Origin: a bacterium
Lineage (GTDB): Bacteria; Hinthialibacterota; Hinthialibacteria; H5-UNCL2
Assembly (NCBI GenBank): GCA_015075175.1
Contig: JABTUV010000009.1
Location: 62,001 to 126,000 of the forward strand
Length of the DNA stretch: 64,000 nt
Direction: 5' to 3'
In this document: positions 12,965-28,794 of the stretch, piece by piece
Layout of the letters: every line of letters begins with the position of its first letter
Position numbering within the stretch: the stretch's first letter is position 1
The notes under the pieces: generated by a model
Seen by the model: only the letters and a program-made list of their open reading frames with translations
Told to the model about the DNA's origin: nothing
Database searches by the model: none
Made by a program: the position numbers and the translations under genes

Positions 12965-14200
12965 CTACGCCCCTCCCGCCGCGTTGCGCCGGATGCGCGA
13001 CAGATGAAGCATCCAGAGCGCCCCGGCGACCATCAGAACCAAAGCATAGCTAAACGCGACGCGCACACCCAACGTCGCCCACAGCCAACCGACCACGACG
13101 CTGCTCAACCAGTCTCCCGTTCCCGTGACGACCGCAAGCGCCCCGAACCCGCTCCCGCGAATGGCAGGGGGCAGCAACTCGGCCGCGACCGCGTCCTCCA
13201 CCGCCTCGTAAAGGCCCACTCCCATTCCGCCCAAGGCGAACATGACGGCAAGTCCCGCCTGGCTCCGCACTCCCATGATCATGCACAGCGCAGCCAGCCC
13301 GGCGGACAGGTATCCGACCACCAGAAGAAGGCGACGGTTGATGTGGTCCGCCGTCCAACCGCCCAAGTAGGAGCACGCGGCGTAGAGGACGTTGTGCAGG
13401 GCGTAAAAAGCCACCGAAAGCGCGGAGGCGTGGACCGTCCCAACCTCGGGCGTCAACACCGCAACGGCGTAGAGAATATAGAAAGTGTCGGCAAAGTCCC
13501 CCAGTCCAAAAAGTCCGACCGCGCCCAGGAATTCCTTGAACGGGACGCCAAAGCCGCGGAAGCTCTTGAGCATGGGCGCCTTTGTCGGCACTCGCTTGGG
13601 GGTTTCCCCGACCAGGAACACGATGGCCAGCGCGGCCGCCAACGCGGGAAACGTGGCGAGTAAAATCAGCGTGCGTTCGCTCAGCCCTGTTGCAACCAGG
13701 CCGAGCACCAGCAGCGGCGCCAGGACGGCGCCGGTTGTGTCCATGGCGCGCTCGAAGCCAAAAGCCCGGCCGTATGCCTCCGGCGCCACCGCCTCCGCCA
13801 TGAGCGCCTTGCGCGCGGGGGTGCGCAGGCCCCGTGAAATCCACGCCCAGACGCGGCCTGCCAACACAGTGGGCCAGCTCGCAGCGGCGGAGATGATCAG
13901 CGGCGCCAGCGCCATCGACGCGTATCCGCCGGCGCAGAGGGGCTTGCGGCGCCGGAGTCGGTCCGCCAGCCAACCCCCGTAGAGCTTGGCTAAACTCGAA
14001 AGTCCGTCCGCAAAGCCCTCAATGGTCCCAAGCGCTCCCGCGGCCAGACCCATCGAGGCCAGAAACGCGGGTAGCACCGACGTGACCGTTTCATGACTCA
14101 GGTCGCTGGCCAGCGAAGCCAAACCGATCCCCAGGACCGTCCGGGTAAGCCAGCGTACTTGCGGTTCGCGCAACGCCGCGGCTTCAGCGGCTTCACTCAT
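12965..14200 (-). CDS. MFS transporter, end of the fluoride operon
   Basis: A 411-residue, roughly twelve-segment permease beginning [10 protein letters not shown]. The segment SDLSHETVTSVLPAFL in the first membrane region and the loop LADRLRRRKPL are typical of one bacterial MFS subgroup. The start at 14200 overlaps the preceding stop by 4 bp (ATGA), placing it in the operon led by riboswitch 1. Export of a fluoride-related or stress-related solute is an inference from context only; the family does not show a substrate. Confidence 0.75.
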   Translation of the reverse strand: MSEAAEAAALREPQVRWLTRTVLGIGLASLASDLSHETVTSVLPAFLASMGLAAGALGTIEGFADGLSSLAKLYGGWLADRLRRRKPLCAGGYASMALAPLIISAAASWPTVLAGRVWAWISRGLRTPARKALMAEAVAPEAYGRAFGFERAMDTTGAVLAPLLVLGLVATGLSERTLILLATFPALAAALAIVFLVGETPKRVPTKAPMLKSFRGFGVPFKEFLGAVGLFGLGDFADTFYILYAVAVLTPEVGTVHASALSVAFYALHNVLYAACSYLGGWTADHINRRLLLVVGYLSAGLAALCMIMGVRSQAGLAVMFALGGMGVGLYEAVEDAVAAELLPPAIRGSGFGALAVVTGTGDWLSSVVVGWLWATLGVRVAFSYALVLMVAGALWMLHLSRIRRNAAGGA

Positions 14201-14661
14201 GAACTCTCCTCCCGGTCGGACCCCAAATCTTGATGACCCATGGCGGCCTCGATCCGGTGCAAGCTCAAGCACAATTCATCCAGCTTGGGATCCAGATAGG
14301 CGGCCAGCTCCGGGGTCGGATCGCCGTAGCCGCGCAAGCGCCTGCTCTGGATTTCCTGCAAGTCCGACCAAGCGCAGGCGCAGTCACCGCGAATCGTCTG
14401 GGAGACAAGCAAGACGCGTTCGGCGAGACCCAGCTTGTCGCGCACACAGGCGATGGCCTGCTGCGCTTCGGCGACCGCCTGCTTCACTTGCCGGCGTTGT
14501 GCGGTGTCCAGGTCGTTCCGCATGTGATACAGAACCGAGGCAATCCCCCGTCCCTCCGCCCACAACCGAAACTGGCACAACGTTTCGTCCAGCAGCCCCA
14601 GCGTGGTGGATATCACGCGCCGATGGTTCTCGCTGATCGGTAGTATTTCCCGCTCGCTCAT
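14197..14661 (-). CDS. Unknown alpha-helical protein in the fluoride operon
   Basis: A 154-residue soluble protein that I do not recognise. It looks mostly helical, with one CVRDK and one CACAWSD segment, and no signal peptide or membrane span. It overlaps the enolase stop and the MFS start by 4 bp each, so it is almost certainly translated as part of this operon. The position suggests a role in the fluoride response or in enolase protection, but nothing in the sequence shows this. Confidence 0.7.
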
Positions 14662-15935
14662 GGCGCCAATGGATTGTCGAAAATCGCCGCCGCTCCCAGC
14701 TCCATTTCGATCTCCAAGAGGCGGTTGTACTTGGCGATCCGCTCACTGCGGCAAGCCGAGCCGGTCTTGATCTGCCCGCCGCCCATGGCGACCGCGAAAT
14801 CGGCCATAAACGTATCCTCCGTTTCGCCGGAGCGATGCGAGATGACGTAGCCCCAGCCCGCCTTGCGGCACAGCGCGACGGCCTGGATGGTCTCCGTAAC
14901 CGTCCCGATCTGGTTCAACTTGATGAGCACGGCGTTGGTGGACTTCTCTCGAATCCCGCGCGCGATGAAGCTGGTGTTGGTCACGTAGATGTCGTCGCCG
15001 ACGATCTGAATCTTGTCGCCCAGCCGCGCCGTATGCTCCGCAAACCCCTCCCAGTCGTTCTCGGCCAGCCCGTCCTCAATGGATACAATGGGATACTTCT
15101 TGAGCCAGTCGGCGTAGAGATCGGTCATCTGGGCGCTGTTCTTCCTGCCCTGGCCGGACTTGGCAAGATTGTATCGGCCGTCTTCGTAAAAGGAGCTGGC
15201 GGCGGGATCGAGCGCAATGGCCACGTCCTTGCCCGGCGAGTAGCCTGCGGCGGAGATGGCCTCGACGATCACCTCGCAGGCTTCCTCGTTGCTTTTCAGA
15301 TTGGGGGCGAAACCGCCTTCATCGCCGACGCTGGTGGCATAGCCCTTCTTGCCGAGTATTTTCTTGAGGGCATGGAAGGTCTCGGCGCCGTAACGCAGGG
15401 CTTCCGCAAAGTTGGGTGCGCCGAGCGGCATGACCATGAACTCCTGCAGGTCCACGCTGTTGTCGGCGTGCTTGCCGCCGTTGAGGATGTTCATCATGGG
15501 AACCGGCAGCCGTGCCGCCCCGACTCCGCCGAGATAGGCATAGAGCGACAGGCCGGCCGCCGCCGCGGCCGCCTTGGCGACCGCCATGGAGACGGCCAAA
15601 ATGGCGTTGGCGCCCAGCTTCCCCTTGTTGGCCGTGCCGTCCAGCTCGATCATCAGCGCGTCGATTTCCGCTTGCCGTTGCGGGGGCATGCCCAGCACTT
15701 TCGGCGCGATGACCGTGTTGACGTTGTGCACCGCTTTCAGCACGCCCTTGCCGCCGTAACGCTTCCCGTCTCCATCGCGCAATTCGACGGCCTCGTTCTC
15801 TCCGGTGGAAGCGCCCGAGGGCACGGAGGCCGTGACCTCGATCCCATTACTCAGCCGGCATCGCACGCGCACCGTCGGGTTGCCGCGCGAATCCAGAATT
15901 TCCATCGCCTTGAGCGCTTCGAGGGTGGTTGGCAT
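14658..15935 (-). CDS. eno: Enolase
   Basis: A 425-residue enolase of normal length: N-terminal [12 protein letters not shown] and [14 protein letters not shown], catalytic-loop GDEGGFAPN, the metal-binding region [10 protein letters not shown] and [11 protein letters not shown], and the signature [17 protein letters not shown] containing the catalytic Lys. It interconverts 2-phosphoglycerate and phosphoenolpyruvate. Enolase is strongly inhibited by fluoride with phosphate and Mg, and eno genes are known members of crcB-riboswitch regulons. Its place in an operon with FluC fits that. I cannot tell whether the genome has a second, housekeeping enolase. Confidence 0.97.
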
Positions 15936-15959
15936 GATCTATGGCTCCTTATCGATCGG

Positions 15960-16433
15960 TTATTCCCGCAGGGTCGCCTTCAACCGCAGCGGGTGTAGAA
16001 TCAAGTCCAGGGCGTCGGCGATATCTCGGACGACGACATCCGCCACGCGCAGCAATTCGGCCGCGGCGCCCTCCGGCCCGACTACCGCAATCGCCAACTC
16101 AGCCAGCTGCAGGAGCGGCGCGTCGTTGCGCCCGTTGCCGATGGCTATGACTCCCTTGGCGGCCGTGGCGCGAACCACTTCGGCCTTCTCTGCGCCGGTC
16201 TCTACGATCCTTACTTTCACGGGCAGACCGTCCAGTTGCGCCACCGCCGTTCCGAACGTGTCCGCCGTGAGCACCGTGATTCGGAGATTTTGGGCGAGCG
16301 AGCGCAGCCGCTCGGCAACGCCCGGCAGAAGTACGCCATCGCGCGAGAGCGTTCCGGTAAAGTCCACAATCAAGTCGGTAAACCTCTGCTCGGGACGCCC
16401 CGCCGGCGGCAGGGCAGGTAAGCGATCGCTCAT
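15960..16433 (-). CDS. HAD-family phosphatase, soluble P-type-ATPase-like
   Basis: 157 residues. HAD motif I is DFTGTLSRDG (nucleophile Asp followed by Thr-Gly-Thr, as in P-type ATPases, rather than DxDGT), motif II region VLTADTFG, motif III Lys in TGAEKAEV, and motif IV GNGRNDAPLL. This matches the small soluble P-type-ATPase-like group. The length excludes a membrane pump. It starts 4 bp inside the GTPase stop and ends 24 bp before enolase. A phosphatase acting on a fluoride-stress metabolite is a contextual guess. Confidence 0.8.
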   Translation of the reverse strand: MSDRLPALPPAGRPEQRFTDLIVDFTGTLSRDGVLLPGVAERLRSLAQNLRITVLTADTFGTAVAQLDGLPVKVRIVETGAEKAEVVRATAAKGVIAIGNGRNDAPLLQLAELAIAVVGPEGAAAELLRVADVVVRDIADALDLILHPLRLKATLRE

Positions 16434-18139
16434 CGCATCCCCTCCATGGCGCGCAAGCGTTCCAGGGTCTCCGCAATGTCGGTTGAAGACTCCTGCGATG
16501 CGCTTTCCAAAAGGGTCTTCAGGGTTTCCAGCTCGCGCTCCACGAACTGCCCGGCGGCCTCGACCAGGGCGCGCACGGAGGCGGAGATCGACTCGGTCCA
16601 CTGCGAGGCCAGGCGGTAGAGATGTTTTTCCACTTCCCAGGCCACGGCGCGTCGAAAACTGCGATGGACGAGGGGCCGGACGAACCTCATGGGGATCAGC
16701 ATGCCGGACGGCCTCCCAGGGTGTGTCGAAGACCCGACCAGGGAGATGCTCATGCCGGGGGCGGCCGGATGGGCCTCAAAGGTCGCCCCGAGAACTTTGC
16801 GATGCAGCACGGCCTCCACATCGCCGGAGACGCGATCCTGAAAGCCTGGACGATCCGGTTCGCGGTCTTCGCGGCGGGTTGGACCTTTCCCCATTCGCCG
16901 GCGCTGTCGCGACTGAGCCCTCCAATCGCACGAGCAGGGTCTCCCCTGCCAGCGCCTGAATTCCGAGCACTCCTCATCCAGGCGTCCCCGCCACTGCGGC
17001 AGGCGCCGGTCGAGATCGCGCCGCATCTCGTCGGCCAGGTTTCGCTTGTGCGCCAAAAAGCGACTCTCGGTAGCCGCGCGTGCTCTCTCTTCCGCATCCC
17101 GCGCCAACAGCGCCAGTTCGCGCTTGAACAGGGCGAGGTGAGTCTCCTCCTGTTCGATGCTGCGCAGCAGATCCGCCCGCGCCCGCGCCTCGTCCCGCGC
17201 GGCGTCCAGCGCCAGCTGCAGATAATCGCAGCAGGCCGTCCGGAGCGTCTCGATCTTGTGCGCCAAGATGTCCGCCGCACGCCGCTTTTCGTCGCTGCCG
17301 AAGCGCCGCGAGAGAAGCTGCCGGAGCGCATGCAGACTCTCCTCGTGGCCGGGCCGGACGGAGACCGCCGCCACCGGAAGGTCCCGACCGAGTCCCCGCC
17401 GCAGTTGCGCGTGCACAAAGGCCTCGATGTTCCGCAGTTGCGCCGGATCGACCAGATCGGCCTTGGTCAAAAGCAGGATGATCTCAGGCGTGTAGGGTTC
17501 CAGCTCGCGCAGCAGGGCGAGGTCGTCTTCCGCAAGGGGTTGGGCGACGCTGACGGCGACCAGCCCCGCGCCGACCCGCGGCAGCCATTGCATCGCCGCC
17601 CGCGTGTTTTCCAGATGCACGCTGCCGGTGCCCGGCGTGTCCACGAAGCGGACGCCGTCCAGCAATCCCTGCGTGGCCACGCGCACTTCGACGCGGGACA
17701 CGTTGCGCCGGTTGCCGGGATTCTCCCTTTCGGTGACGTATTCACTCAGGCGACCGAGCGGGACCTCAAGCGAGGCGCCATCGGCAAATCGGACGATGGC
17801 GCCATCCTGCCGGCCCGGCGTGATACGCGTGACCACCGCCGTCGCCGGCAGGACGTCGACGGGCAGGATCTCGCGCTGCAGCAAGGCGTTGAGGAGGGAG
17901 CTCTTACCGGCCTTGAAGCGTCCCAGCACCACCACGTCGATCCTGTCCGCCTCGCCGGCGTAAGCGGAAACTTCGCGCACCTGCGCGCTCAAGGACGCAA
18001 GGCCGTACTTGCGGCAGGTTTCATCCAAGTAGGCAAGCACGCCGTCCATGGGAGGTCCCATAGCGTTTCCGTCCCGCACTTTCGGTTCGCTCCCGGCGGC
18101 GCAGGCGTCGGATGGTCCTGCATTCCGTCGGGTCGTCAT
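16430..18139 (-). CDS. Dynamin-like GTPase in the fluoride operon
   Basis: About 569 residues. G1 GRFKAGKSS (about 73-81), G3 DTPG (167-170) and G4 TKAD (225-228) sit in an N-terminal GTPase domain of the bacterial dynamin-like type. A long helical stalk-like region follows. Between about 16965 and 16845 the best reading moves through the other two frames (AGETLLVRLEGSVATAPA, then KTANRIVQAF) and returns to QDRVSGDVEAVLHRK, so the total length is nearly preserved. The start overlaps the DUF190-CBS stop by 4 bp. Such GTPases remodel membranes. A membrane-protective role under fluoride stress is inference. Confidence 0.8.
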   Translation of the reverse strand: MTTRRNAGPSDACAAGSEPKVRDGNAMGPPMDGVLAYLDETCRKYGLASLSAQVREVSAYAGEADRIDVVVLGRFKAGKSSLLNALLQREILPVDVLPATAVVTRITPGRQDGAIVRFADGASLEVPLGRLSEYVTERENPGNRRNVSRVEVRVATQGLLDGVRFVDTPGTGSVHLENTRAAMQWLPRVGAGLVAVSVAQPLAEDDLALLRELEPYTPEIILLLTKADLVDPAQLRNIEAFVHAQLRRGLGRDLPVAAVSVRPGHEESLHALRQLLSRRFGSDEKRRAADILAHKIETLRTACCDYLQLALDAARDEARARADLLRSIEQEETHLALFKRELALLARDAEERARAATESRFLAHKRNLADEMRRDLDRRLPQWRGRLDEECSEFRRWQGRPCSCDWRAQSRQRRRMGKGPTRREDREPDRPGFQDRVSGDVEAVLHRKVLGATFEAHPAAPGMSISLVGSSTHPGRPSGMLIPMRFVRPLVHRSFRRAVAWEVEKHLYRLASQWTESISASVRALVEAAGQFVERELETLKTLLESASQESSTDIAETLERLRAMEGMR

Positions 18140-19419
18140 GGCTCCGCCACACCCGCCCGCAACAGCGAATCCCGGCTGACCATGCCCTTGAACTTACCCT
18201 CCCCGTCCAGTACCGGAAGGCGCTTGATCCGTTTTTCGACCATGACGCGCACGGCCTCCTCGATGGGGGTCTCCTCGCGCACCGTGATGAGGTCCGTCTG
18301 CATCACTTCCCGGGCGGTCTTGTTTTCCAGACTGGTCAAGAGCTCCTTGGGGCGCTTTCCGATCTCCAGAAAAATCAGTTTGCTGACGAGATAATCCCAC
18401 CATCCGGCGCGATGCTCGGAGAACGCGCCCAGCAGCGTGCGATCCGAGATTAATCCGAGAAATTCTCCCGCCGGACCAACCACGGCAACCCGCTGGATGT
18501 CGTTGTCGTCGATGATCTTGAGCACCTCCAGCACGGGAGTGTCGGGCGGCACCACGTGGGTGTCGCGCCGCATGATATCGCGCACAAACCGGGCCTCCCG
18601 TATGTCCACGCGCTGCGCGCGCATGGCGTCCCAGTCGGGAGCCGTAGTCATGATGGTCCTGAAAATGTCCAAACGCGCGAGGACGCCTGCCAGCTTGCCG
18701 CTCGCATCCACCACCGGCACGCGCTTGAGTCCCTTGGACAGCATGAGGTTCACGGCCGCCACCAGCCTCTCCTCTTCTTTGACCGTTACGGGAGGCTTAC
18801 TCATGATGTCCCGGGCTGCCAGAGTGGGCATGGCGGCAAACAACTCTTGCGATTTGGAGTCATCCTCCATCTCGCGCAGGATTCCGAGGCGGACCGGCAT
18901 CCCGGCGCGCGTGATGAGATCCCCTTGGGTGATGATGCCGATGGGACGCTGCTCGTCGTCCACCACGGGTACTCCGTTGAAGGTCGCGCTCAGCAATAGC
19001 CGGGCGACGTCACTGGCCGGCGTGGCCGCTTTCACGGTTTGGGGCAGGGGTGTCATCGCGTCGCGCACCAGCAGCTGGCGCGGCAGCAGCCGGGATTTCG
19101 CGCGGTGGAGGCGGATGTCCATCTCCTCCACGACGATGATGCCATCTTCGACCATCGCCTCGATGGCGGGCAGCAGCCGGTCCAGCTCCGGCGCGGGCAG
19201 AATAATCTCGATCTTCAGCGGCATGTTGAACGAGAGGATTTCGATTCCGTGCGAGGCGATCTCACCGTTCTCATAGCAACCGGCAACCCCCTTGGTGACG
19301 GTGCAGCGCGCGGCGATGCGTTGAGCGCGGACGCGTTCGAGAACCGCCTGGTAAAGCGGCTTGCCGTGGAAGCGCGTTTCTTCGCTGGTGAAAATCTCGA
19401 TCACGTGATACTTGAGCAT
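18136..19419 (-). CDS. DUF190 domain fused to four CBS domains
   Basis: A 427-residue soluble protein. The N-terminal 105 residues (KPLYQAVLERVRAQRIA, GCYENGEIASHGIEILSF, LPIxxIIVPA-like LKIEIILPAPELDRLL) match DUF190, a PII-like domain commonly encoded next to CrcB. Four CBS repeats follow as two pairs, with motifs such as VRDAMTPLPQTV, DIMSKPPVTV, DIMRRDTHVV and VMQTDLITV. CBS pairs bind adenine nucleotides, so this looks like an energy or nucleotide sensor that could gate FluC or another operon product. It lies 18 bp downstream of fluC. Confidence 0.85.
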   Translation of the reverse strand: MLKYHVIEIFTSEETRFHGKPLYQAVLERVRAQRIAARCTVTKGVAGCYENGEIASHGIEILSFNMPLKIEIILPAPELDRLLPAIEAMVEDGIIVVEEMDIRLHRAKSRLLPRQLLVRDAMTPLPQTVKAATPASDVARLLLSATFNGVPVVDDEQRPIGIITQGDLITRAGMPVRLGILREMEDDSKSQELFAAMPTLAARDIMSKPPVTVKEEERLVAAVNLMLSKGLKRVPVVDASGKLAGVLARLDIFRTIMTTAPDWDAMRAQRVDIREARFVRDIMRRDTHVVPPDTPVLEVLKIIDDNDIQRVAVVGPAGEFLGLISDRTLLGAFSEHRAGWWDYLVSKLIFLEIGKRPKELLTSLENKTAREVMQTDLITVREETPIEEAVRVMVEKRIKRLPVLDGEGKFKGMVSRDSLLRAGVAEP

Positions 19420-19437
19420 CCGCGCGCGCCTCCCTCT

Positions 19438-19812
19438 TCAGACCATCAGCTTCGAAAGTAACATGCCGGCCACAACCAGTGCAAATCCCAACAGGTTGTT
19501 GGCCAAGAGGTTGCATCCGGCGACCAAAAACGACGTCGTACGCGCGGCGTTTATCGTCTCCAGGGCATAGGATGAGAAGGTCGTGAGCGCACCCAGATAT
19601 CCCGTGATGAAGAACAAACGGACGTTGGGGCCAAGCAGGTTGGCGCGTTCGGAAAGGCCGAACGCCAGGCCGATCAGCAGGCATCCCGTGAGGTTTACCA
19701 TCAGCGTTCCATAGGGAAAGCCCGCGCCCCAACTGCGCGTGGCCCAAAGACTCACGCCGTAACGGCATGCGGCGCCCAGGCTGCCGCCGATGAAGACGTA
19801 CACGAGTTTCAT
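19438..19812 (-). CDS. fluC: Fluoride channel FluC/CrcB
   Basis: A 124-residue, four-helix membrane protein with GGSLGAACRYG (9-19), NLTGCLLIG in helix 2 and the broken-helix signature GYLGALTTFSSY (about 71-82), which holds the central sodium site and the Phe residues that line the fluoride pathway. FluC dimers let fluoride leave the cytoplasm passively. The start is set at 19812 (MKLVYVFIGG); the longer frame adds a charged non-conserved tail. It sits between uspA and the DUF190-CBS gene and is the key reason the operon is assigned to fluoride resistance. Confidence 0.95.
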   Translation of the reverse strand: MKLVYVFIGGSLGAACRYGVSLWATRSWGAGFPYGTLMVNLTGCLLIGLAFGLSERANLLGPNVRLFFITGYLGALTTFSSYALETINAARTTSFLVAGCNLLANNLLGFALVVAGMLLSKLMV

Positions 19813-19878
19813 GACCCCGCTCCACGCCGCGCGCCGCGCGTCCGCCTTCCCGCCGTCGCGATCGTCCCCTCGCATGGT

Positions 19879-20295
19879 CTACCGCACGACCGTGACGGAG
19901 CAGGGCGCGTAGCTGAGCACGCGCTTGGACACGGACCCCAGGAGCCATCGTTCCATCACGCTCTTGCCGCGATGGCCCATGACAATCAGGTCCGCCTTCT
20001 CCTCGGCCGCCATGTGCACGATCTGCTCGGCGGGATGGCCCACCACCACACGGCTCTCCATGACCACTGCGGCGGCCTCGGCGGCGGCGCGGAAGGCCAC
20101 GAACTGCCTTTCAAAGTGCTCGGTGGCGGAGTCGAGCATGGCGGACGTTTCGACCATCGTTGGTGGATCCGGCGGGCGCGCCACCGACAGCACGATAAGA
20201 TCGGCGCTGAATTGCCTGGCCAGCTCCAGCGCGAAATCAAAGGCGCGCGCCGCCGATTTCGATCCGTCATAAGCGACGAGAATCTTGCGCAGCAT
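19879..20295 (-). CDS. Universal stress protein UspA family
   Basis: 138 residues with the Usp fold: ILVAYDGSKSA at the N-terminus, ADLIVMGHRGKSVMERWLLGSVSKRVL matching the ATP-binding GxxGx9GS pattern, and the SVTVVR end. An AAGGAG Shine-Dalgarno precedes the ATG. It lies 15 bp downstream of the antiporter stop. Single-domain ATP-binding Usp proteins are reported in crcB-riboswitch regulons, consistent with this position. Confidence 0.9.
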   Translation of the reverse strand: MLRKILVAYDGSKSAARAFDFALELARQFSADLIVLSVARPPDPPTMVETSAMLDSATEHFERQFVAFRAAAEAAAVVMESRVVVGHPAEQIVHMAAEEKADLIVMGHRGKSVMERWLLGSVSKRVLSYAPCSVTVVR

Positions 20296-20310
20296 GGTCC
20301 ATCTCCTTTC

Positions 20311-21552
20311 TCAGTCCGCGTCCGACGGGGCTTCAGTGGACGGCGACAGCCGGGACTCCACCGCCCCCAACGGCCCGATCGCCTCTCGTGCGTCCACCAG
20401 GGTACGCTTGGGAAGCAGGTAATGAGGGATAAAGAAGGCGTTGGCGATCAGCGTCGGCACCACCGCGCTGCCGATTACGGTAGCCACCAGATAGGAATAC
20501 TGTTCCTGCGTAATCACGCCGTGGGTCAAGCCGAAGAGTGCGGAGATGGTCCCAAAGGTAAGCCCGGTAGACATCAACAAAGTGGAATAGACGGCTTCGC
20601 GCTGGGCGTAGCGAAAGAGCTTGGTCGCCGGATATACACCCACGCTCTTGGTCAGCAACTTGGCGGCAAGCAAAGTGAAGAAGACCACCGGCGCCGCCGC
20701 CAGCGCAGGGACCGACACAAAGGAGCCCGCGCGAATGAAATAAAAGGGGGTGAGCAGGCCGAAAGTCAGAGTGCGCAAACGTCGCACCAAAACGTGATCT
20801 TTACCCACTGATCCAGCCAACACCATGCCGATGAGATAGGCGGGCAGAACGGCCTCGCTGCCGGACCACGTGGCCAGCGCCGCCATACCGAAAAGGAGAA
20901 GTAGCAGATACTTCGCCTCCAACTCCGAAGGCCGTCCCCCGTACCTGGCGAAAAAACGCGGTGTGAGCCAGGGGATCACGAAAAAGACCGCGATGCCGAC
21001 CAGGACGAATACGAGGGTCTTGTAGGTGAAAGGCGCGAATATCAGCCCCAGCGCAAGCACTGTTCCCAAATCGGTGATGAAACAGGCGGCCAAGATGGCT
21101 TTCCCAAAGTCGGTGCGGTTGAAACCCAGCTCCAGCATCACGGCATACACCACTGCCACGGAGGTTGTGGACAGGGCCACGCCAGCCAACCAGCTGGCCA
21201 TGATCCCCCAGTGCAGAATGTATCGCGCGACTGCCGCGCAGCCCAGGAAAGGTGCGAAAAAGGCAACGAGGCCGACGAACGTGGCCTCCTTCCAGCGGGC
21301 GCGGAAGACCACCGGATCCAATTCCGCTCCGGCCAGAAAGGTCAGCACGATCGCCCCGGTACCCGAAAGGAAGCGAATCCAGGATTCATCCGCGCCCAGC
21401 GCCACTCCGACGGCCGCACCGATCAAGAGTTGCGCCACGGTTCCCACCACGATTTCCGACAGCGCGGTGGCGATACGGAACCAAATGGATAACAGCGTGG
21501 CGATTAGTGCCAGCCCCACCCAGAGGGCCGCTTGCGCCCATACTTCAGTCAT
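20311..21552 (-). CDS. CPA2-type cation:proton antiporter, first gene of the fluoride operon
   Basis: 413 residues and about twelve or thirteen membrane segments, matching the Na+/H+ or K+/H+ exchanger (Kef-like) membrane domain without the C-terminal TrkA-N domain. The unwound-helix region is likely around FITDLGTVLALG, where Asp is the proton carrier. The start at 21552 (MTEVW) has AAGGGGG 6 nt upstream; an in-frame ATG at 21558 is possible. It is the first gene behind riboswitch 1. Sodium/proton antiporters are known crcB-RNA targets. Fluoride/proton or cation/proton exchange cannot be distinguished here. Confidence 0.88.
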   Translation of the reverse strand: MTEVWAQAALWVGLALIATLLSIWFRIATALSEIVVGTVAQLLIGAAVGVALGADESWIRFLSGTGAIVLTFLAGAELDPVVFRARWKEATFVGLVAFFAPFLGCAAVARYILHWGIMASWLAGVALSTTSVAVVYAVMLELGFNRTDFGKAILAACFITDLGTVLALGLIFAPFTYKTLVFVLVGIAVFFVIPWLTPRFFARYGGRPSELEAKYLLLLLFGMAALATWSGSEAVLPAYLIGMVLAGSVGKDHVLVRRLRTLTFGLLTPFYFIRAGSFVSVPALAAAPVVFFTLLAAKLLTKSVGVYPATKLFRYAQREAVYSTLLMSTGLTFGTISALFGLTHGVITQEQYSYLVATVIGSAVVPTLIANAFFIPHYLLPKRTLVDAREAIGPLGAVESRLSPSTEAPSDAD

Positions 21553-21655
21553 CTCCATCCCCCTTCCGCTCCAGCGGATGTCTCCGTCGCGGCGGCGTGG
21601 GCGAAGATGCGGTCGAGCCACACAAGGAGCTTATAGGTCCCGGCAGCTGTAGGCC

Positions 21656-21731
21656 GACTCCTGCTCCACGATCCGTCGCGGCAGGAGTCATCAGCCTGGT
21701 GGGGCAGTTCTGAAAGGGGGACTCCATCCCC
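21656..21731 (-). promoter_or_regulatory. Fluoride riboswitch (crcB motif) 1, leader of the antiporter-fluC-eno operon
   Basis: Read on the minus strand from 21731: P1 hairpin GGGG-AUGGAGU-CCCC, then a GAACUGCC...GGCUGAUGACUCC segment. P3 is GCC/GGC. The P1 loop GGAGUC can pair with the 3' GACUCC as the pseudoknot that defines the fluoride fold. This agrees with the crcB consensus GGNGAUG...CUGAUGRCUCCU. The 3' strand GACUCCUGC can alternatively pair with GCAGGAGUC (21656-21664), giving a mutually exclusive hairpin suitable as an expression platform. No clear U-run follows. Its place between a promoter and the fluC operon strengthens the call. Confidence 0.93.
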
Positions 21732-21751
21732 TGTCCGAGTTATTACCACAA

Positions 21752-21781
21752 ATGATAAACGAGCGACACCATCATTTTCAA
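21752..21781 (-). promoter_or_regulatory. Sigma70-like promoter for riboswitch 1 operon
   Basis: On the minus strand TTGAAA (21781-21776) and TATCAT (21757-21752) are 18 bp apart. Transcription would begin about 15 bp before the riboswitch P1 stem. It lies in the 220-bp gap after the second MutS-like gene. Confidence 0.7.
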
Positions 21782-21952
21782 CTCCAAAGTAGCTCTCGCA
21801 TTGGGCCCGGAGCAAAGGACATGGCCGGCGGCCGGTGAAACCCGCAGGAGCACCGCCGACTCTCCTCTGCGGCACGCCGACCTGTGCACAACGCGACGCA
21901 TCCGTCCCGGACAACTGCACTGGATCTCCAGCGCCCCTGTAGGCGCCTCGTC

Positions 21953-23467
21953 TCAACAAACCGGGTGGTCTGTTGTGAAGATCGCCCGGTACAAGTCCGC
22001 GCCATAACAGGTCGGCAGAGGGTCTCCCTCGACCAGATGGAAGGTCCGGCTTCCGTCCGACTCTCTCTCGGCCCGCAGGAACGTCACGTTTTTCACCCGT
22101 GCCTTACTGAAGCCGCAGGCAAAATCGTACAGATGCGTCACGAAGAAGACCTTGACGCGGCGTTCCAGGAGCACACGGACAATCTGGCGGGCGATCTCCG
22201 AGCCTTCGCGCTCGTTGGTGGCGGAAAAGGATTCGTTGAACAGAATCAGGGCGTCGGAGGTAATATGGTCTACGATCTCGCTCATGCGGCTGAGCTCCTC
22301 GTCAAACTTGCCGCTTTTCATGTCGGCGTCCTCTTCCCGCTTGTAGTGGGTGAAAACTCCACTGCACACATTGGCGGAAAAGGACTCGGCCGGCACGAAC
22401 ATACCGCACTGCATCATCACCTGCGCCAGTCCGATGCTGCGCAAAAAGACCGATTTTCCGCCCTGGTTGGCCCCCGTGATGATCACGAGGTCTCGCGCAT
22501 CCGCATCCACATTGTTGCCGACTACCTTGCGGTCCATGGTCAGCGCCAGGCAGGGGTCGTAAAGCCCGCGGAAGTTGTGCCGGCGCTGCCCGGGCGGGGC
22601 CGGTGTGGGAAAGCATACCGGCTCGCCCAGCCTGACCAGATGCTCGTACAGGTTCATGCACCCGATGTAGAAGGCCAGCTCCGTGCGCAGCGCCTCCAGG
22701 AAGCTCTCTACGTGGTGGGCGGACTGGGCCACGGCGTTGGCGACCAGGTTCAGCCCGCGATCCCGCAGTTCCGAAAGCCCTCGCGCCCCCGGCTCGTCGC
22801 GCGGATCGAGGCGAAAGCTGTAAGCCTGCGCGCGCATGGGCACGAGCCGCCTCCACCAGCCTCCCCGCTCCGACCGGGGCCGGCGGAGAACATACTCGGC
22901 GCCCTCGTTGCCGTTTCCCAAGTGCGCGCTGATGGGGACGCCGCGACGGAACTTCAGCGTGCGGAGGTGGAATCGGACGCGCGCAAAGTAGTCCTCATCC
23001 AGCTCGGTTTCCAGCATCGTGAAGAAGCGCGCAAAACCTTCCGATGAAAACTCCCCGGCATGTTCGCGGCCGACCCGGCAGAGTTCGCTCATAAGCCCGA
23101 CCAGGAACTCCAGCAGTTGCACCGCGCTGGAGAGAATCGTCCTGGTTGCCACGGCCGAAGACGCCCAGCCCAGCCAGTGTCTTCGCTTGCCGGCGGCCAG
23201 CTCTCCCGTGAGAGCGTAGATCTCCCGCACGACCTGCGAATTCCTCAGGCAATCCCGGAGCACGTCCTGTCGGTAATGCAGGGTCGCCAGATTCGTGGTC
23301 CGGGCCAGCAGGCAGCGGGTCGCCACGTCCCGCACCAGTCGGTCCTCCCCCGCCATGGCGTCCAGCAGGACCCGTAACTCGAGATCCTGCAAGAGCGCCT
23401 GCCCGTTCCATGGCAGCGGTTCTTGACGGCTGAAGTCCCGGTCCGGGTAGAGAAGATTAACCTTCAT
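21953..23467 (-). CDS. MutS-like ATPase B
   Basis: 504 residues. The C-terminal half is a MutS-type ABC ATPase: Walker A TGANQGGKS (332-339), FVPAESFSANVC, then Walker B LILFNES (about 408-413) and a late VFFVTHLYDF. The N-terminal half is the helical core/lever type; the mismatch-recognition domain I of MutS and the Smr domain of MutS2 are absent. The start overlaps the stop of MutS-like A by 4 bp, so the two probably form a heterodimer. MutS-like genes are reported downstream of crcB RNAs, but their role in fluoride tolerance is not established. Confidence 0.87.
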   Translation of the reverse strand: MKVNLLYPDRDFSRQEPLPWNGQALLQDLELRVLLDAMAGEDRLVRDVATRCLLARTTNLATLHYRQDVLRDCLRNSQVVREIYALTGELAAGKRRHWLGWASSAVATRTILSSAVQLLEFLVGLMSELCRVGREHAGEFSSEGFARFFTMLETELDEDYFARVRFHLRTLKFRRGVPISAHLGNGNEGAEYVLRRPRSERGGWWRRLVPMRAQAYSFRLDPRDEPGARGLSELRDRGLNLVANAVAQSAHHVESFLEALRTELAFYIGCMNLYEHLVRLGEPVCFPTPAPPGQRRHNFRGLYDPCLALTMDRKVVGNNVDADARDLVIITGANQGGKSVFLRSIGLAQVMMQCGMFVPAESFSANVCSGVFTHYKREEDADMKSGKFDEELSRMSEIVDHITSDALILFNESFSATNEREGSEIARQIVRVLLERRVKVFFVTHLYDFACGFSKARVKNVTFLRAERESDGSRTFHLVEGDPLPTCYGADLYRAIFTTDHPVC

Positions 23468-25056
23468 TCCGGCAGCCGCTCCAGCAGTTGTTGGTAAGTC
23501 AGGCGGTACTTCTGGGCGATGGCCAGCGCGTACGCCAGACCGTCGGCGGGCCGCCGCACGATCTTGAAGGTCCGCAAGGCGGGATTCTCGGGATGGACGG
23601 TCGCAACCATGCTGACGATCCGCTCGTCCCCCGCGGCCAGCTCGGCCATGAACGTCACCCAGACGCACACACAGCCTCGTTGGAGCAGCTGGCGCAGGAC
23701 GTTCCGGCTCAGCAGCAGCGCGTCCTCAAAAGTCGTCGAATTGAACGCCTCGTTGAGAATCACGAGGCTGCGGGAGTTGGCCTGGGCCAGGATGTCGTGG
23801 GCCCGCACGAGATCATCCTGCAATTTGCCGCGCAGGGTCGCGATGTCTTCCTCCTTCTGAAACAGGGTAAAAAGGTGGTGGCAAAGGAGCAGGCGGGCCT
23901 CCCTGGCCGGCACGGGCAGGCCGAGCGCGGCCAGATAGTGCAACTGCCCGAAGGCACGGGCGAAGGTGGTCTTGCCGCCCTGGTTGGGACCGGAGACGAC
24001 GATCACGCGCTCGCCTTGCCGCAGCGCGTAGTCGTTACACACCACGGGCTGCCCGGCATCGACCAACTGGCGGGCCAGGGCAAGATCGAAAATCCGAGCC
24101 GCCCCGTTCTGTTCCAGGGTGCTGAAAAGTCGCGGATAGCAGAAGGCGAGCCCCTTCTCTCGCAGAGCGGCGATGTACTCGAAGTAGGCCAGGTAAAACT
24201 GAACCTCGCGGTCGAAGACGGCGATCGCGTTATCGATAAAGGCGGTGTTCCGCGCACAGTATGCGTCGAGACGGAGGAAGACGTCGGGGTGCAGTTTGGC
24301 CACGAGCCCGACAATGCGCGCCTGGACGGAGCTCATCCCGCCGCCCGCGCGCAGATCGAAGAGGTAATCCTCGACCTCGCCCTGCTGAAACCTGGCGAAG
24401 GTCGCCTCTACCTCGCGGCTGTAGTCGGGCTCGCCGGCATAATTCCGCACGGAGACCCGATCTCCGTCGATCAGCACGCAATATTCGATGGCCGACAAGT
24501 CGTCCTTGAGCGCCTGCGTCTCGGCGCGCAGCCGGACAAACCGCTCCCCGGCAACGTAGCCGCGGAGATACTCCTCAAAACCCAGCAGGCCACGCGACTG
24601 CAATTCCGCGTGCTCCAGCTCACGGACCAGACCCACCACGGCGTCACAGTACGCCTCGGCGGCGCACAGGAACCAGCCTTCCTTGTGGTACCGATCGTCG
24701 AGCTTCCCGATGGCGGCCAGATGCTGGCGGGTCGCGCGAAAGCGGGACGCGAACGCCTTGATGGGCGCGGCGACCGCCTCCTTTTCCATATCCCGCGCGA
24801 TCTCATGGCGGTAGTAGACGTCCTCGGTCCTCTTCAAAGGCGCATAGTACCACGGCTTGAGATCGTATTCCTCGCGGCCGGTCGTGAGGGCGTCAATGAC
24901 CTGATCCAGATTCAGGTCACCGAAGAAGGCGGGTTCCTCGGCCGTTGCCGAGTCGACAGGGCCGGACGCTGCCGGGAACAGAAGACTCGTGGCCGCCCTA
25001 CCGCCCTGACTTGAGGGCGGAACATCCGACATGGCTTCCACCCGGACTGTCGTCAT
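23464..25056 (-). CDS. MutS-like ATPase A, first gene behind riboswitch 2
   Basis: 530 residues from the ATG at 25056, chosen because an AAGGAG Shine-Dalgarno lies 9 nt upstream and the longer frame would run through a terminator and the riboswitch. It contains Walker A SGPNQGGKTT (about 355-364), GLPVPAREARL, FQKEEDIATL and Walker B LVILNEAFNSTT (about 431). Like its partner it lacks the MutS mismatch-binding and Smr domains. It shares only the ATPase signature with MutS-like B, so this is an old divergence, not a tandem duplication. Confidence 0.87.
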   Translation of the reverse strand: MTTVRVEAMSDVPPSSQGGRAATSLLFPAASGPVDSATAEEPAFFGDLNLDQVIDALTTGREEYDLKPWYYAPLKRTEDVYYRHEIARDMEKEAVAAPIKAFASRFRATRQHLAAIGKLDDRYHKEGWFLCAAEAYCDAVVGLVRELEHAELQSRGLLGFEEYLRGYVAGERFVRLRAETQALKDDLSAIEYCVLIDGDRVSVRNYAGEPDYSREVEATFARFQQGEVEDYLFDLRAGGGMSSVQARIVGLVAKLHPDVFLRLDAYCARNTAFIDNAIAVFDREVQFYLAYFEYIAALREKGLAFCYPRLFSTLEQNGAARIFDLALARQLVDAGQPVVCNDYALRQGERVIVVSGPNQGGKTTFARAFGQLHYLAALGLPVPAREARLLLCHHLFTLFQKEEDIATLRGKLQDDLVRAHDILAQANSRSLVILNEAFNSTTFEDALLLSRNVLRQLLQRGCVCVWVTFMAELAAGDERIVSMVATVHPENPALRTFKIVRRPADGLAYALAIAQKYRLTYQQLLERLPE

Positions 25057-25106
25057 CTCTCGCGTCTCCTTCCGCCGGCCGGAGCGCGATACTCGCCTCG
25101 ACCCAA

Positions 25107-25128
25107 CAAAAAACCGCCTCGCGGCGGT
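25107..25128 (-). terminator. Intrinsic terminator between riboswitch 2 and the MutS-like gene
   Basis: Minus-strand hairpin ACCGCC-GCGA-GGCGGT followed by six U residues. It sits about 25 nt after the riboswitch's alternative hairpin and 50 nt before the start codon. It is therefore well placed to stop transcription unless fluoride-bound RNA prevents it. Confidence 0.85.
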
Positions 25129-25153
25129 CGTGGGCGCTGCCTCGCCGGACACG

Positions 25154-25224
25154 CTCCTGCCGCAGCTCTCATGCAGCAGGAGTCATCAGCCCGACAGGCG
25201 CTTGTTTCGGGGGACTCCATCCCC
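25154..25224 (-). promoter_or_regulatory. Fluoride riboswitch (crcB motif) 2, leader of the MutS-like pair
   Basis: On the minus strand from 25224: P1 GGGG-AUGGAGU-CCCC, then AAACAAGCGCC...GGGCUGAUGACUCC. The pseudoknot partners GGAGUC/GACUCC, the CUGAUGACUCCUGC block and the P1 stem are the same as in riboswitch 1, while the joining sequence and P3 loop differ. GACUCCUGC can re-pair with GCAGGAG at 25154-25160. An intrinsic terminator lies further downstream (25107-25128), so transcription attenuation is the likely mechanism. Confidence 0.93.
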
Positions 25225-25232
25225 ACGATGGA

Positions 25233-25261
25233 AAATTACCGCATCAGGCCCGCGCCGTCAA
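25233..25261 (-). promoter_or_regulatory. Sigma70-like promoter for riboswitch 2
   Basis: Minus strand TTGACG (25261-25256) and TAATTT (25238-25233) with a 17-bp spacer, placed just upstream of the riboswitch P1 stem. The same arrangement precedes riboswitch 1. Confidence 0.7.
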
Positions 25262-25889: not shown

Positions 25890-26027
25890 GCCGGGCTCCC
25901 TTCGCGCGGATGATGGAGAGGGATGATAGAGACCGGCGAGGGAGAGGGGAAGGGGGTTTGTGCCGCCCGTCCCCCAGGCATGGGGAGTCGAGCTACGAGG
26001 GACAGTTCGCGGGTGAATGCAGGTTGC
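25681..26027. repeat. Inverted segmental duplication, copy 1
   Basis: About 347 bp, nearly identical in inverse orientation to 50170-50510. The left edge coincides exactly with the stop of the IS3 orfA fragment. The right edge lies inside the last codons of the FGE-sulfatase gene. Differences between the copies are small indels in C or G runs and a few substitutions around the gap before the TTG. Confidence 0.92.
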
Positions 26028-28335
26028 TGACGCTCATCTCCTCCAGCCCGAACGTCGGCGTCGGCGTCGGGGTGTGAGTATAGGTGGGCGTGGCCGTCCA
26101 CGTCAGCGTCGGCGTGAGAGTTGGTGGGGTGGCTGACTCGACCGTCCGTACCACACGGAAGCCAGTATAGTCGCGTCCATACGTGGTGTAGCCGACGCCA
26201 CGACCTGCCGAGCGGCACCCACTCGCGTAGAAACCCCAGGCGCCACCCCGAATCTGGTGGTAGCTGGGATCCCCCGTTGTCCATGCGCTTCCATCCACGG
26301 GTGCGCCCACGTAATCGCGATTGCGCCAGTCTTCGCACCACTCAGCCACGTTCCCGCTCATGTCATGGAGCCCCCACCCGTTGGGCAGCTTGAGCCCTAC
26401 CACGTGACCATACGGCTCACCGACAAGAGTTGTATTGTCCCGATACCATGCGAAGTCATTGATTTTCGTTTCGCTCAGATCGTCGCCCCAATAGTACGAC
26501 GTGATAGACGTCGCCCGGCATGCGTATTCCCATTCCGCCTCGCTTGGCAGGCGGAATGATCCCTGCCCCAAGGCATTGAGCCTTTCCAGAAAACCAGTCG
26601 CATCCCGGATGTCATTCCACGACACGTGGACCGCAGGGCTGTCCGGGTCGCTGAGAACACCGTCCCGTCCCAACCAAGGCGCAGTACCCATGACGGCTTC
26701 CCACTGCGCCTTGGTGATTTCATGTTTGCCCAGGTAGAAGTCGTAACCGATGTCGACCCGGTGCCGGGGATCCTCGGAGGGATAACCACCACCTTCGTCC
26801 GGACCGTGGCCCATCGTGAAGCGCCCGGCGGGAATCTTCACCAGCATCAAGGGAGTAGCGTCCTGCGGCAGGCCGGGAAGATCAATGATGATCTCTTCCT
26901 GGCTTCCGGAAGCGACGGTATAGCTGGCATGCTGCGACTTCACATACGGAGTCTGGCTGGTGACGCGAACGAAGGCTTCATAGCTTCCCGGTTCACCGGT
27001 GGGAAAGCTGTTGTACGGCAGTATCAGCGCCTCACCGTCAACCATAGGTACGATGAACGGGCCGCTGTCGTGCTGAAGAATCCCATCCCGAAGTGTGACC
27101 CAGTGGTATTCCACCGGTCCGCTGCCCGAACCGAAAAGCGCGCCATCATTGGATACCCTGCCCCCCTGCCACGTGGTGGACGGCGAAAATGAATCGACCG
27201 AGACGGAATCCACGCGGGCCGGCGCCGACTCTACCTCCCGCACAATGCGCAAACCGGAAAATTCGCCGCCGCGAGCGGGAGAGTCGTAGTCCCGGTGCGC
27301 CGAACGGCAGATGTAGTCCGAAACCGCGAAATCGCCGCCGCGACGCACCCGGTAACCGCTGTCTCCGGATGTCCAGGCGCTTCCATCGGCGGGCGCGCCC
27401 TGGTAACTCTCATTCCACCAGTCCTCACACCACTCCCACACGTTGCCGCTCATATCGTGGAGTCCCCACGCGTTGGCAAGCTTCAGCCCGACGACGTGGG
27501 CGTATGATTCGCCTGCCTTCCATGCGTTCCAGTAGTACCATGCGTAATTGCCGATCTGAGTACCGGCGGAATCGTCGCCCCAATAGTACCGCGTGGTCGT
27601 GCCGGCGCGGCAGGCGTATTCCCACTCCGCCTCGCTGGGCAAACGGAACTTGCCGCTACCCAATAGATTCAATTTGTAGAGGAAGCCGTTGGTACCGTGG
27701 ACGCGATACCAGCTGAGGCAAATCGCCGGGCTGTTCGGATCATGGAGCACGTGAACCGCCTGACCCTGCCAGGGCGCCGCGCCCATTACTGCCTGCCACT
27801 GCGCTTTGGTGATCTCGTATTTCCCGATGTAGAAGTCGTGGCCGATATCTACCCGGTGCTGGGGTTCTTCATTGCTGGCGCCGAGTATTTCACCGGCGTA
27901 ATGGCCCATCATAAAGCTGCCGGCGGGAATCCGAACCATGATAAGCGGCGTGGCGTCAGCCGGCAGGCCGGGAATGTCGATGATGATCTCACTGGGTTCC
28001 GCGGTCGGCGATGGAGTCGGCGTGGAGCCGGGCGCGTCCGTCCACGTCGGCGTGTTCGTCGGCGTGGGCGTGGCAGTCCCGGTCGGGCTGGGCGTAAACG
28101 TGAACGTGGGCGTCGGGCTGGTGGCCTGTTTCCAGTGCTCGATGATGTAGAGCACATCGGCCTCATCGACGATGCCGTCGCCGTTCAAGTCGCCCGCACC
28201 GCCGCCCCCGCGCTGCCAATTCTCGGCGACGTTGAGGAGATCGCCGCCGTCGATGCGACCGTCGGGATACGCCACAAGCGCGCAAAAGAGTACGAGAGCC
28301 GCCGTGAGCGGAAGCGAGGGGAGAGGTCGCTTCAT
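25993..28335 (-). CDS. Secreted protein with dockerin-like module and two FGE-sulfatase domains
   Basis: 780 residues from MKRPLPSLPL (signal peptide). Next comes a dockerin-like pair of calcium loops (DGRIDGGDLLNVAENW, DLNGDGIVDEADVLYI), a Thr/Pro linker, FGE-sulfatase domain 1 (MVRIPAGSFMMG, FRLPSEAEWEYACRAG, GLHDMSGNVWEWCEDWW), an intervening Ig-like stretch, domain 2 (MLVKIPAGRFTMG, LHDMSGNVAEWCEDW, GFRVVRTVE) and a second Thr/Pro linker. FGE-like domains occur in formylglycine-generating enzymes and many non-enzymatic secreted proteins; activity is not assured here. The linker leads nowhere: the last ten or so residues come from the duplicated segment, so the C-terminus is probably truncated. 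Confidence 0.88.
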   Translation of the reverse strand: MKRPLPSLPLTAALVLFCALVAYPDGRIDGGDLLNVAENWQRGGGGAGDLNGDGIVDEADVLYIIEHWKQATSPTPTFTFTPSPTGTATPTPTNTPTWTDAPGSTPTPSPTAEPSEIIIDIPGLPADATPLIMVRIPAGSFMMGHYAGEILGASNEEPQHRVDIGHDFYIGKYEITKAQWQAVMGAAPWQGQAVHVLHDPNSPAICLSWYRVHGTNGFLYKLNLLGSGKFRLPSEAEWEYACRAGTTTRYYWGDDSAGTQIGNYAWYYWNAWKAGESYAHVVGLKLANAWGLHDMSGNVWEWCEDWWNESYQGAPADGSAWTSGDSGYRVRRGGDFAVSDYICRSAHRDYDSPARGGEFSGLRIVREVESAPARVDSVSVDSFSPSTTWQGGRVSNDGALFGSGSGPVEYHWVTLRDGILQHDSGPFIVPMVDGEALILPYNSFPTGEPGSYEAFVRVTSQTPYVKSQHASYTVASGSQEEIIIDLPGLPQDATPLMLVKIPAGRFTMGHGPDEGGGYPSEDPRHRVDIGYDFYLGKHEITKAQWEAVMGTAPWLGRDGVLSDPDSPAVHVSWNDIRDATGFLERLNALGQGSFRLPSEAEWEYACRATSITSYYWGDDLSETKINDFAWYRDNTTLVGEPYGHVVGLKLPNGWGLHDMSGNVAEWCEDWRNRDYVGAPVDGSAWTTGDPSYHQIRGGAWGFYASGCRSAGRGVGYTTYGRDYTGFRVVRTVESATPPTLTPTLTWTATPTYTHTPTPTPTFGLEEMSVSNLHSPANCPS

Positions 28336-28549
28336 GGCGGTCCTCCAAGCGGAAAACAAACTGCATCGCGTGTTCGGGTATTCGGGGAAGGACCAGAAGC
28401 AGATTGCGCCCCGACACGGACGTTCCGACGCGAGCCAAAAAGAGAAGTTCACAAGGGTATTCTCTTCCCTTTCGGAGGCTCTTGTCAAGGACCAATACGC
28501 CGCAGGGTGCAGCCGTGAGGATTTACGGCTTCGAGTGCCGTTGCGCGCA

Positions 28550-28640
28550 GGCTGAAGCCTGTACTCCGGATACAGTCGGAGTACAAACTTTAGTTTGCGT
28601 CTTGCAGGCCGAAGCTCGTACTCCGCGTGTTCCCGGCGCC
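28550..28640. repeat. Dispersed repeat, family D (gagtacaaactttagtttg)
   Basis: Small imperfect palindromes such as gcaggctgaagcctg and caaactttagtttg joined by tactccg. The same units occur at 39511-39600. The 28336-28549 stretch upstream of the FGE gene shows no recognisable gene and would hold its promoter. Confidence 0.6.
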
Positions 28641-28729
28641 TGTCATTTCGACCGCAGGGAGAAATCCTGCCTTTCGCGGGGGGGGTGGGGAAGAGGGAGG
28701 AAAGATTTCTCCCTGCGGTCGAAATGACA
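28641..28729. repeat. Family A inverted-repeat element, perfect 26-bp arms
   Basis: Arms 28641-28666 and 28704-28729 are perfect inverted repeats of the tgtcatttcgaccgcaggga core, around a purine-rich 37-bp loop. The sequence has ccgcaggg where other copies have ccgaaggg, changed on both arms, so pairing is conserved. It is MITE-like in form. It lies 66 bp before neuA. Confidence 0.9.
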
Positions 28730-28794
28730 GCGGGACTCCTCCCTGCGGTCGGCCCTACCCTTCTCTGCGTTCTCGTGGTAAATATAGAGACATC

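Follow-up and report, generated by a model that had tools for sequence, protein, structure and literature searches.

The locus described here is probably a two-unit fluoride regulon, which would combine fluoride export, pH and ion balance and a replacement enolase with membrane remodelling by an IniA-like, dynamin-like GTPase (DLP). It comprises eleven genes on the minus strand of the window, i.e. the whole stretch of 64,000 nucleotides analysed: a MutS-like pair behind one fluoride riboswitch (riboswitch 1) and nine tightly packed genes behind a second (riboswitch 2). Across phyla, the DLP, a 154-AA protein, a HAD protein and the enolase are recurrently linked to fluoride riboswitches, and regulation and membership of the locus are well supported. 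Induction by fluoride is predicted, as are the biochemical roles given below, above all the membrane role of the DLP. An earlier note on this DNA had described at least eleven genes in two units with the same identities; Pfam and NCBIfam agree with it, whereby the match of the HAD protein is weak and the 154-AA protein belongs to no family.

Both copies of the fluoride riboswitch (RF01734, gathering score 34 bits) are full-length matches above the gathering score. Riboswitch 1 is located at 25170..25233 on the minus strand (Rfam 46.0 bits, E-value 1.5e-9) and riboswitch 2 at 21675..21740 on the minus strand (49.4 bits, E-value 1e-10), about 9-19 nt off the two crcB-motif RNAs which had been proposed for this strand at 25154-25224 and 21656-21731. 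An Rfam search of the whole 4.98 Mb assembly, which is fragmentary and 84% complete, gave no further fluoride riboswitch. In both copies the pseudoknot arms GGAGTC and GACTCC are present, in register with 19 other riboswitches in an alignment. The predicted function of both is fluoride binding and expression control: with rising cytoplasmic fluoride, each aptamer would fold with its pseudoknot and permit expression. Between riboswitch 1 and the start of MutS-a, an intrinsic-terminator-like G+C hairpin is followed by a T run (25112..25129, minus strand), as is expected for a transcription-terminating switch, and the whole leader has a fold z of -4.2; the MutS unit may be controlled by anti-termination. 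No terminator of this type was found downstream of riboswitch 2. The earlier note had also placed each riboswitch behind its own promoter. The promoter scan gave 3 matches compared to 2.2 by chance; one sigma-70-like candidate (TTGAAA-18-TATCAT, 21752..21781, minus strand), not above the chance count, is located upstream of riboswitch 2 and none passed the scan for riboswitch 1, so that an own promoter for each switch is unsupported.

Gene identities were assigned using Pfam and NCBIfam and the starts of four genes were trimmed (CPA2 antiporter 21558, FluC 19812, MFS transporter 14200, MutS-b 23467). Starting from riboswitch 2, the nine-gene unit encodes a CPA2-type cation/proton antiporter (20311..21558; PF00999, Na_H_Exchanger, 112.8 bits; TIGR00932 103 bits, under its cut-off), a UspA universal stress protein (19879..20295; PF00582, Usp, 127.8 bits), a FluC/CrcB fluoride channel of 124 AA from the trimmed ATG (19438..19812; PF02537 88.1 bits, cut-off 32.9; TIGR00494 85.5 bits, cut-off 80.45), a fusion of DUF190 with four CBS domains (18136..19419; PF02641 81 bits; PF00571 four times), the DLP (16430..18139), the HAD protein (15960..16433), a second enolase (14658..15935), the 154-AA protein (14197..14661) and, as the last gene, an MFS transporter (12965..14200; PF07690, MFS_1, 94.1 bits), all on the minus strand. 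Intergenic gaps are at most about 70 nt and the pairs DUF190-CBS/DLP, DLP/HAD, enolase/154-AA protein and 154-AA protein/MFS overlap by 4 nt; therefore, a single transcript is likely. FluC would export fluoride, with the DUF190-CBS fusion, probably a nucleotide-sensing protein, as the probable regulator of export, while the antiporter and UspA would serve pH and cation balance. The MFS transporter, which recurs at riboswitch loci in the survey, is a putative exporter and would form a less understood set with the dynamin, the HAD protein and the 154-AA protein.

The operon enolase matches TIGR01060 with 652 bits (cut-off 300), contains the motifs GASTG, SHRSGE, GDD and KTGSA, and is 62% identical to the other enolase copy of the genome. 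In the tree, ten riboswitch-linked enolases are placed apart from other copies (83/90) and five of them, including that of the window, group with support of 100/99. The operon enolase hence belongs to a riboswitch-linked lineage of which the other copy in the genome is not a member, and it would replace the enolase inhibited by fluoride.

The HAD protein (157 AA) was described in the earlier note as P-type-ATPase-like, which is apt: it has weak matches to P-type models and carries the motifs DFTGT (residue 24), TADTF, K and GNGRND (residue 99), including the P-type phosphorylation and hinge motifs (DKTGT-like and GDGxND-like). Of P-type ATPases, only the P-domain part is matched; the transmembrane, actuator and nucleotide-binding domains are absent from this soluble protein. 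The gene adjoins the DLP gene in riboswitch units of the window and of five other loci (L065, L194, L228, L229 and L251). A fluoride-specific HAD family was rejected as a general statement, as most relatives are found elsewhere and have no constant neighbour.

The DLP matches PF00350 (Dynamin_N) with 77.7 bits and is recurrent in riboswitch units. The GTPase motifs G1 (GRFKAGKS), G3 (DTPG) and G4 (TKAD) are present in the alignment, and IniA is the best match both by sequence and by fold. The predicted model, which is moderately confident (pLDDT 74, stalk tip < 50), has a dynamin fold with a helical stalk and gave Foldseek E-values of 5e-18 for IniA and 6e-15 for BDLP. The protein is divergent, with a top identity of 31%. 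A frameshift, suspected from a middle part of low similarity, was ruled out using tblastn, since the alignments of five relatives run through almost all of the protein without a change of frame. Mycobacterial IniA, like the DLP a bacterial dynamin associated with stress, binds and cuts membranes and has a basic lipid-interacting loop (PMC6715688); expression of iniBAC reduces the permeability of the mycobacterial envelope (PMC13413693). Whereas IniA is induced by cell-wall drugs and encoded in iniBAC, the DLP gene is located behind a fluoride riboswitch. From these relationships we infer GTPase activity and GTP-driven membrane binding or remodelling for the DLP. The dynamin would most likely coat and remodel the inner membrane and keep it tight, or repair it, while fluoride enters as HF, and perhaps this reduces HF permeability. 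At the stalk tip, the alignment has a run of aromatic residues, after which come LP and basic residues; this part resembles the basic lipid-interacting loop of IniA.

The linkage of the DLP to the riboswitch was surveyed in other genomes. Members of the subfamily (> 460 bits) were found in 22 of 386 genomes, all of them among the 86 riboswitch-positive ones and none among the 300 others (Fisher's exact test, p = 4e-16), and 22 of the 24 copies belong to a riboswitch unit; the DLP and 154-AA profiles were built from riboswitch-linked members and, therefore, the genome-wide counts are partly circular. A second, independent scan, which covered about 85,000 species genomes and starts from the same riboswitch-derived DLP profile, gave 73 untruncated DLP loci: in 52 of them a riboswitch precedes the DLP gene on its own strand (within 1 kb in 41 cases) and 21 have none. 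Re-testing by Rfam confirmed the riboswitch in 16 of 16 loci. The riboswitch-linked loci span over a dozen phyla and include archaea. Lower-scoring DLPs form a separate clade without riboswitch. Proteins of about 210-235 AA in a cluster labelled 'DLP~' were left out of the DLP counts; the label was wrong, as the five tested are DUF6062 proteins. A search for plasmid-borne DLP genes gave a single weak match.

The 154-AA protein has a conserved YG motif and a predicted helical-bundle fold. Its family has no significant match in Pfam, NCBIfam, PHROGs or PDB sequences, and it is nearly confined to fluoride riboswitch loci (10 of 386 genomes, 9 of these in a riboswitch unit, with the profile-derived circularity stated above). 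Assignment of a known fold failed: Foldseek and VIA-align gave values at helical-bundle background level only, the best comparison to ferritin-like proteins and rubrerythrin having a Z of 6.8 and an rmsd of 6.2 over 122 residues (Foldseek E-value 0.8). The co-occurrence of GTPase, HAD and unknown gene with fluC or the riboswitch elsewhere, for which the earlier note had proposed a survey, is strong for the GTPase and the unknown gene and moderate for the HAD (six loci including the window). Together, the cross-domain dynamin branch and this new protein could tentatively be regarded as a riboswitch-induced membrane arm, which would remodel the inner membrane and so cut HF entry or repair fluoride damage, in addition to export and enzyme replacement.

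Earlier descriptions of fluoride regulons already include FluC, antiporter, UspA, enolase, HAD and MutS. The available parts of PMC2864571 and PMC11139923 name FluC, Na+/H+ antiporters, enolase, HAD and mutS; the same parts name no dynamin or 154-AA family, both of which recur here. In the most similar operon (PMC5533749), crcB, uspA and eno follow a single fluoride riboswitch, as in the window; this operon was shown by experiment to be induced by fluoride and is needed for high fluoride resistance. Its six genes include a pyrophosphatase and a phosphoglycerate mutase, both missing in the window, but no dynamin, HAD, 154-AA protein, MFS transporter, CPA2 antiporter or MutS-like pair. A connection of bacterial dynamins to the fluoride response was not found in the literature searched, the gene table of the founding 2012 paper being outside its scope, and the description 'partly undescribed' in the earlier note fits this literature. 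'Complete' was a looser term: two riboswitches and eleven genes are present, whereas the pyrophosphatase, CLC-type transporters, hydrogenase-like gene sets and DUF6062 of relatives are absent from the window. The recurrence of DLP and 154-AA protein behind fluoride riboswitches suggests that fluoride resistance has a further arm which is, for the most part, not yet described. This bears on the roles of bacterial dynamins and on the measures of fluoride-resistant cells beyond fluoride export: with a DLP subfamily behind a fluoride sensor, dynamin function could be studied with a known inducer and by simple measurement of growth. In addition, a new protein family is named, and the riboswitch-linked enolase lineage is a candidate for fluoride insensitivity. 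The parts might be used in strains making or degrading organofluorines, for which fluoride toxicity is a major limit according to the available text of PMC11139923.

Alternatively, the locus might be an ordinary fluoride regulon in which FluC, antiporter, UspA, enolase and MutS suffice and DLP, HAD and 154-AA protein are generic stress passengers without a function specific to fluoride. The core genes and HADs are indeed described for fluoride riboswitches (PMC5533749 and the available parts of PMC11139923 and PMC2864571), DLPs, UspA and HADs are stress genes with a wide distribution, and the HAD is mostly found outside fluoride loci. We consider this unlikely, since the DLP frequently comes first behind the switch and is the sole supported gene (first in 64 of 189 riboswitch units, a set partly chosen by DLP), is about as frequent as FluC in a set chosen by riboswitch (21 and 19 of 95, respectively), and since the almost riboswitch-confined 154-AA protein is the sole supported gene of the unit in L148.

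The MutS-like pair consists of MutS-a (23464..25056, minus strand; PF00488 63.7 bits; the ORF opens at 25152, ATG at 25056) and the KamC/MutS2-like MutS-b (21953..23467, minus strand; PF00488 87 bits), whose ATG at 23467 overlaps the stop of MutS-a. Pfam found only the MutS_V ATPase domain and one weak AAA match in the pair, while mismatch-recognition (MutS_I), connector, clamp and Smr domains are absent; the name 'MutS-like' in the earlier note is right. The top NCBIfam relative of MutS-b is KamC, named as lysine 5,6-aminomutase reactivase ATPase (90.7 bits, cut-off 300); a search for KamC literature gave nothing relevant. The window pair shares the MutS_V domain with KamC and MutS2-type ATPases. 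It differs from them by scores far under both cut-offs, by the absence of the Smr nuclease domain and by its tandem arrangement behind a fluoride riboswitch.

P-type ATPases bind metal fluorides. MutS-like ATPases, DLP, HAD and helical bundle might form a machine which frees or repairs enzymes trapped in metal-fluoride(-phosphate) complexes, acting neither on membrane nor on DNA. The KamC relationship of an ATPase-only pair, the P-type motifs of the HAD and the enolase in the nine-gene unit would be consistent with this. It appears somewhat less probable than the passenger explanation, as the DLP is closest to membrane dynamins in both sequence and fold, and the KamC score is far under its cut-off; membrane remodelling by the DLP is preferred. 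DNA repair by the MutS-like pair during fluoride stress, as suggested with the first motif description, which lists mutS among the crcB-motif genes and mentions DNA damage (Weinberg 2010, PMC2864571, available parts), is improbable: despite the MutS-type ATPase domain, mismatch repair is not to be assumed for a pair without mismatch-binding, connector or Smr domain, and the Walker B Asp, replaced by Asn in MutS-a of the window, is Asn in 14 of 14 MutS-a relatives and in the majority of 13 MutS-b relatives examined.

The Rfam covariance model of the fluoride (crcB-motif) riboswitch (RF01734, cut-off 34 bits) gave exactly two matches in the window, both full-length, above the cut-off and on the minus strand, at 25233-25170 (46.0 bits) and 21740-21675 (49.4 bits); a search of the whole genome found no further one. 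The two crcB RNAs of the earlier note are thus borne out, its coordinates overlapping the matches with an offset of 9-19 nt, and every gene identity it named was confirmed by family searches. The first riboswitch heads MutS-a and MutS-b, the second a unit encoding a CPA2 antiporter, UspA, FluC, DUF190-CBS, a dynamin-like GTPase (DLP), HAD, enolase, a 154-aa protein and MFS. With start codons trimmed by homology, only small gaps and several 4-nt overlaps separate the genes from antiporter to MFS, so that a single nine-gene transcript is likely from the sequence; MutS-a and MutS-b overlap each other similarly. The stretch separating riboswitch 1 from MutS-a contains a terminator-like hairpin and T run that fit a transcriptional switch; no such hairpin was found downstream of riboswitch 2. 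A promoter had been proposed for each riboswitch; one candidate was found, but support is weak and the count is at chance level.

Two riboswitch-headed units, with the DLP and the 154-aa protein as members of the fluoride regulon, are well supported, and the proposed co-occurrence survey showed DLP, HAD and 154-aa genes recurring in fluoride riboswitch units of other genomes. RF01734 matched in 86 of 386 genomes (E 0.001) picked for kinship, mostly from different families. DNA was collected around nearly all above-cut-off riboswitches and ORFs were scored by profiles seeded with the window proteins. Downstream same-strand units of 95 riboswitches (70 genomes) contained DLP (21), CPA2 (21), FluC (19), DUF190 (16), MFS (16), the 154-aa family (10), MutS pairs (9) and enolase (6); both window riboswitches are included, as one unit continues into the other. 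The closest gene order, in G010 of the same class, is riboswitch-DLP-enolase-unknown-MFS-CPA2-UspA-DUF190-DUF190-FluC; G274, of another lineage, has CPA2-UspA-DLP-HAD-MFS. Five to six fluoride riboswitches, several heading different units, lie within about 25 kb at single loci in Methanoregula (L232) and G140 (L109/L110).

DLP-alignment scores among the 386 genomes were bimodal, with 24 matches of at least 460 bits and the next at 315 and lower. These 24 fall in 22 genomes, all riboswitch-positive (22/86 vs 0/300, Fisher p 4e-16), an association that is partly circular because linked DLPs (those within a riboswitch unit) supplied the profile. Twenty-two lie within such units, the G109 riboswitch narrowly missing the cut-off at 32.8; the remaining two are additional to a linked DLP of the same genome. 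Among DLPs absent from the profile, those of G373 and G105 are linked and two further ones are not. Separately, GTDB species genomes were searched with the DLP profile, the best 80 loci were retained, and riboswitches were sought with a model built from 21 riboswitches. Of the 73 loci whose upstream DNA sufficed, 52 had a same-strand riboswitch upstream, 41 of these within 1 kb, and Rfam re-testing confirmed 16/16. Linked loci comprise 18 of the 19 from Nitrospirota, others from Thermodesulfobacteriota, Myxococcota, Acidobacteriota, Bacillota, Pseudomonadota, Armatimonadota, Bacteroidota, Spirochaetota, Caldisericota and more, and three archaeal ones (Methanoregula, Thermoplasmata, Micrarchaeota). 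A quick-method tree of 135 DLPs places 19 never-linked sequences on one side (99); the remaining 116 contain all 81 linked ones. Some fluoride loci of Acidobacteriota, Pseudomonadota and Myxococcota hold two or more DLPs (L191, L207, L238, L210, L234, L185, L241), one of about 700 aa. Bacterial dynamins frequently act in pairs.

IniA is the top match of the window DLP by sequence (2e-15) and by predicted fold (5e-18; model pLDDT 74). In most members an aromatic stretch precedes LP and basic residues at the stalk tip; the lipid loop of IniA relies on basic residues (PMC6715688), and iniBAC reduces envelope permeability (PMC13413693). The DLP may act on the membrane, perhaps limiting HF entry or repairing damage. 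Fluoride operons and most of their components are already known, defence being described in PMC11139923 and PMC5533749 as export, pH balance and extra enolase. No dynamin-fluoride riboswitch link was found in the literature searched, a scope that stops short of the 2012 founding paper and does not prove priority.

The 154-aa protein, a predicted four-helix bundle (pLDDT 89.5), had no match in Pfam, NCBIfam, PHROGs or PDB sequences and no convincing fold match. An alignment search found its family in 10 of the 386 genomes, nine times in riboswitch units and once outside (G388), and it recurs at GTDB-derived riboswitch loci L213 and L237; YG is invariant within an R-x-L-R-G-Y-G-like stretch. The HAD protein (157 aa; DFTGT, TADTF, GNGRND) most closely resembles the P-domain found in copper P-type ATPases and would work as a phosphatase; such a HAD also adjoins a DLP in riboswitch units L065, L194, L228, L229 and L251. 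DUF190-CBS might serve FluC as a sensor.

The operon enolase has intact catalytic motifs and is 62% identical to a second copy elsewhere in the genome. It shares more identity (82, 80, 78 and 70%) with riboswitch-linked enolases from other lineages. Ten riboswitch-linked sequences cluster in the tree (83/90), with a core of five (100/99) marked by S37 near the mobile loop and M384 and G386 near KTGSA; riboswitch-linked enolases of Nitrospirota, Syntrophomonas and Hungateiclostridiaceae fall outside. The MutS-like pair showed only the ATPase domain in Pfam searches, and in fluoride-linked relatives, including window 23464-25056, the Walker B Asp is Asn (NE) in 14/14 MutS-a and most MutS-b; mismatch repair is therefore an unsafe reading.

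In seven genomes a fluoride riboswitch is followed immediately, or nearly so, by a DUF6062 (PF19538) protein rich in cysteine and histidine (L062:8463-9113, L079:8802-9428, L137:9387-10058, L144:10967-11653, L156:12347-13054, also L129 and L152; Pfam on five), which looks like a further undescribed fluoride gene. HEAT-repeat proteins, either small (12 loci, sometimes with a zinc ribbon) or of about 460 aa, also recur in riboswitch-headed units (e.g. L228:3632-4018, L185:7174-8565). In the window, inspection by eye suggested a long minus-strand ORF (25993-29508) with dockerin-like and two formylglycine-enzyme-like (SUMF1-type) repeats, and, overlapping or following it on the plus strand, cytidylyltransferase-like (28627-29517) and formyltransferase-like (29514-30485) genes.
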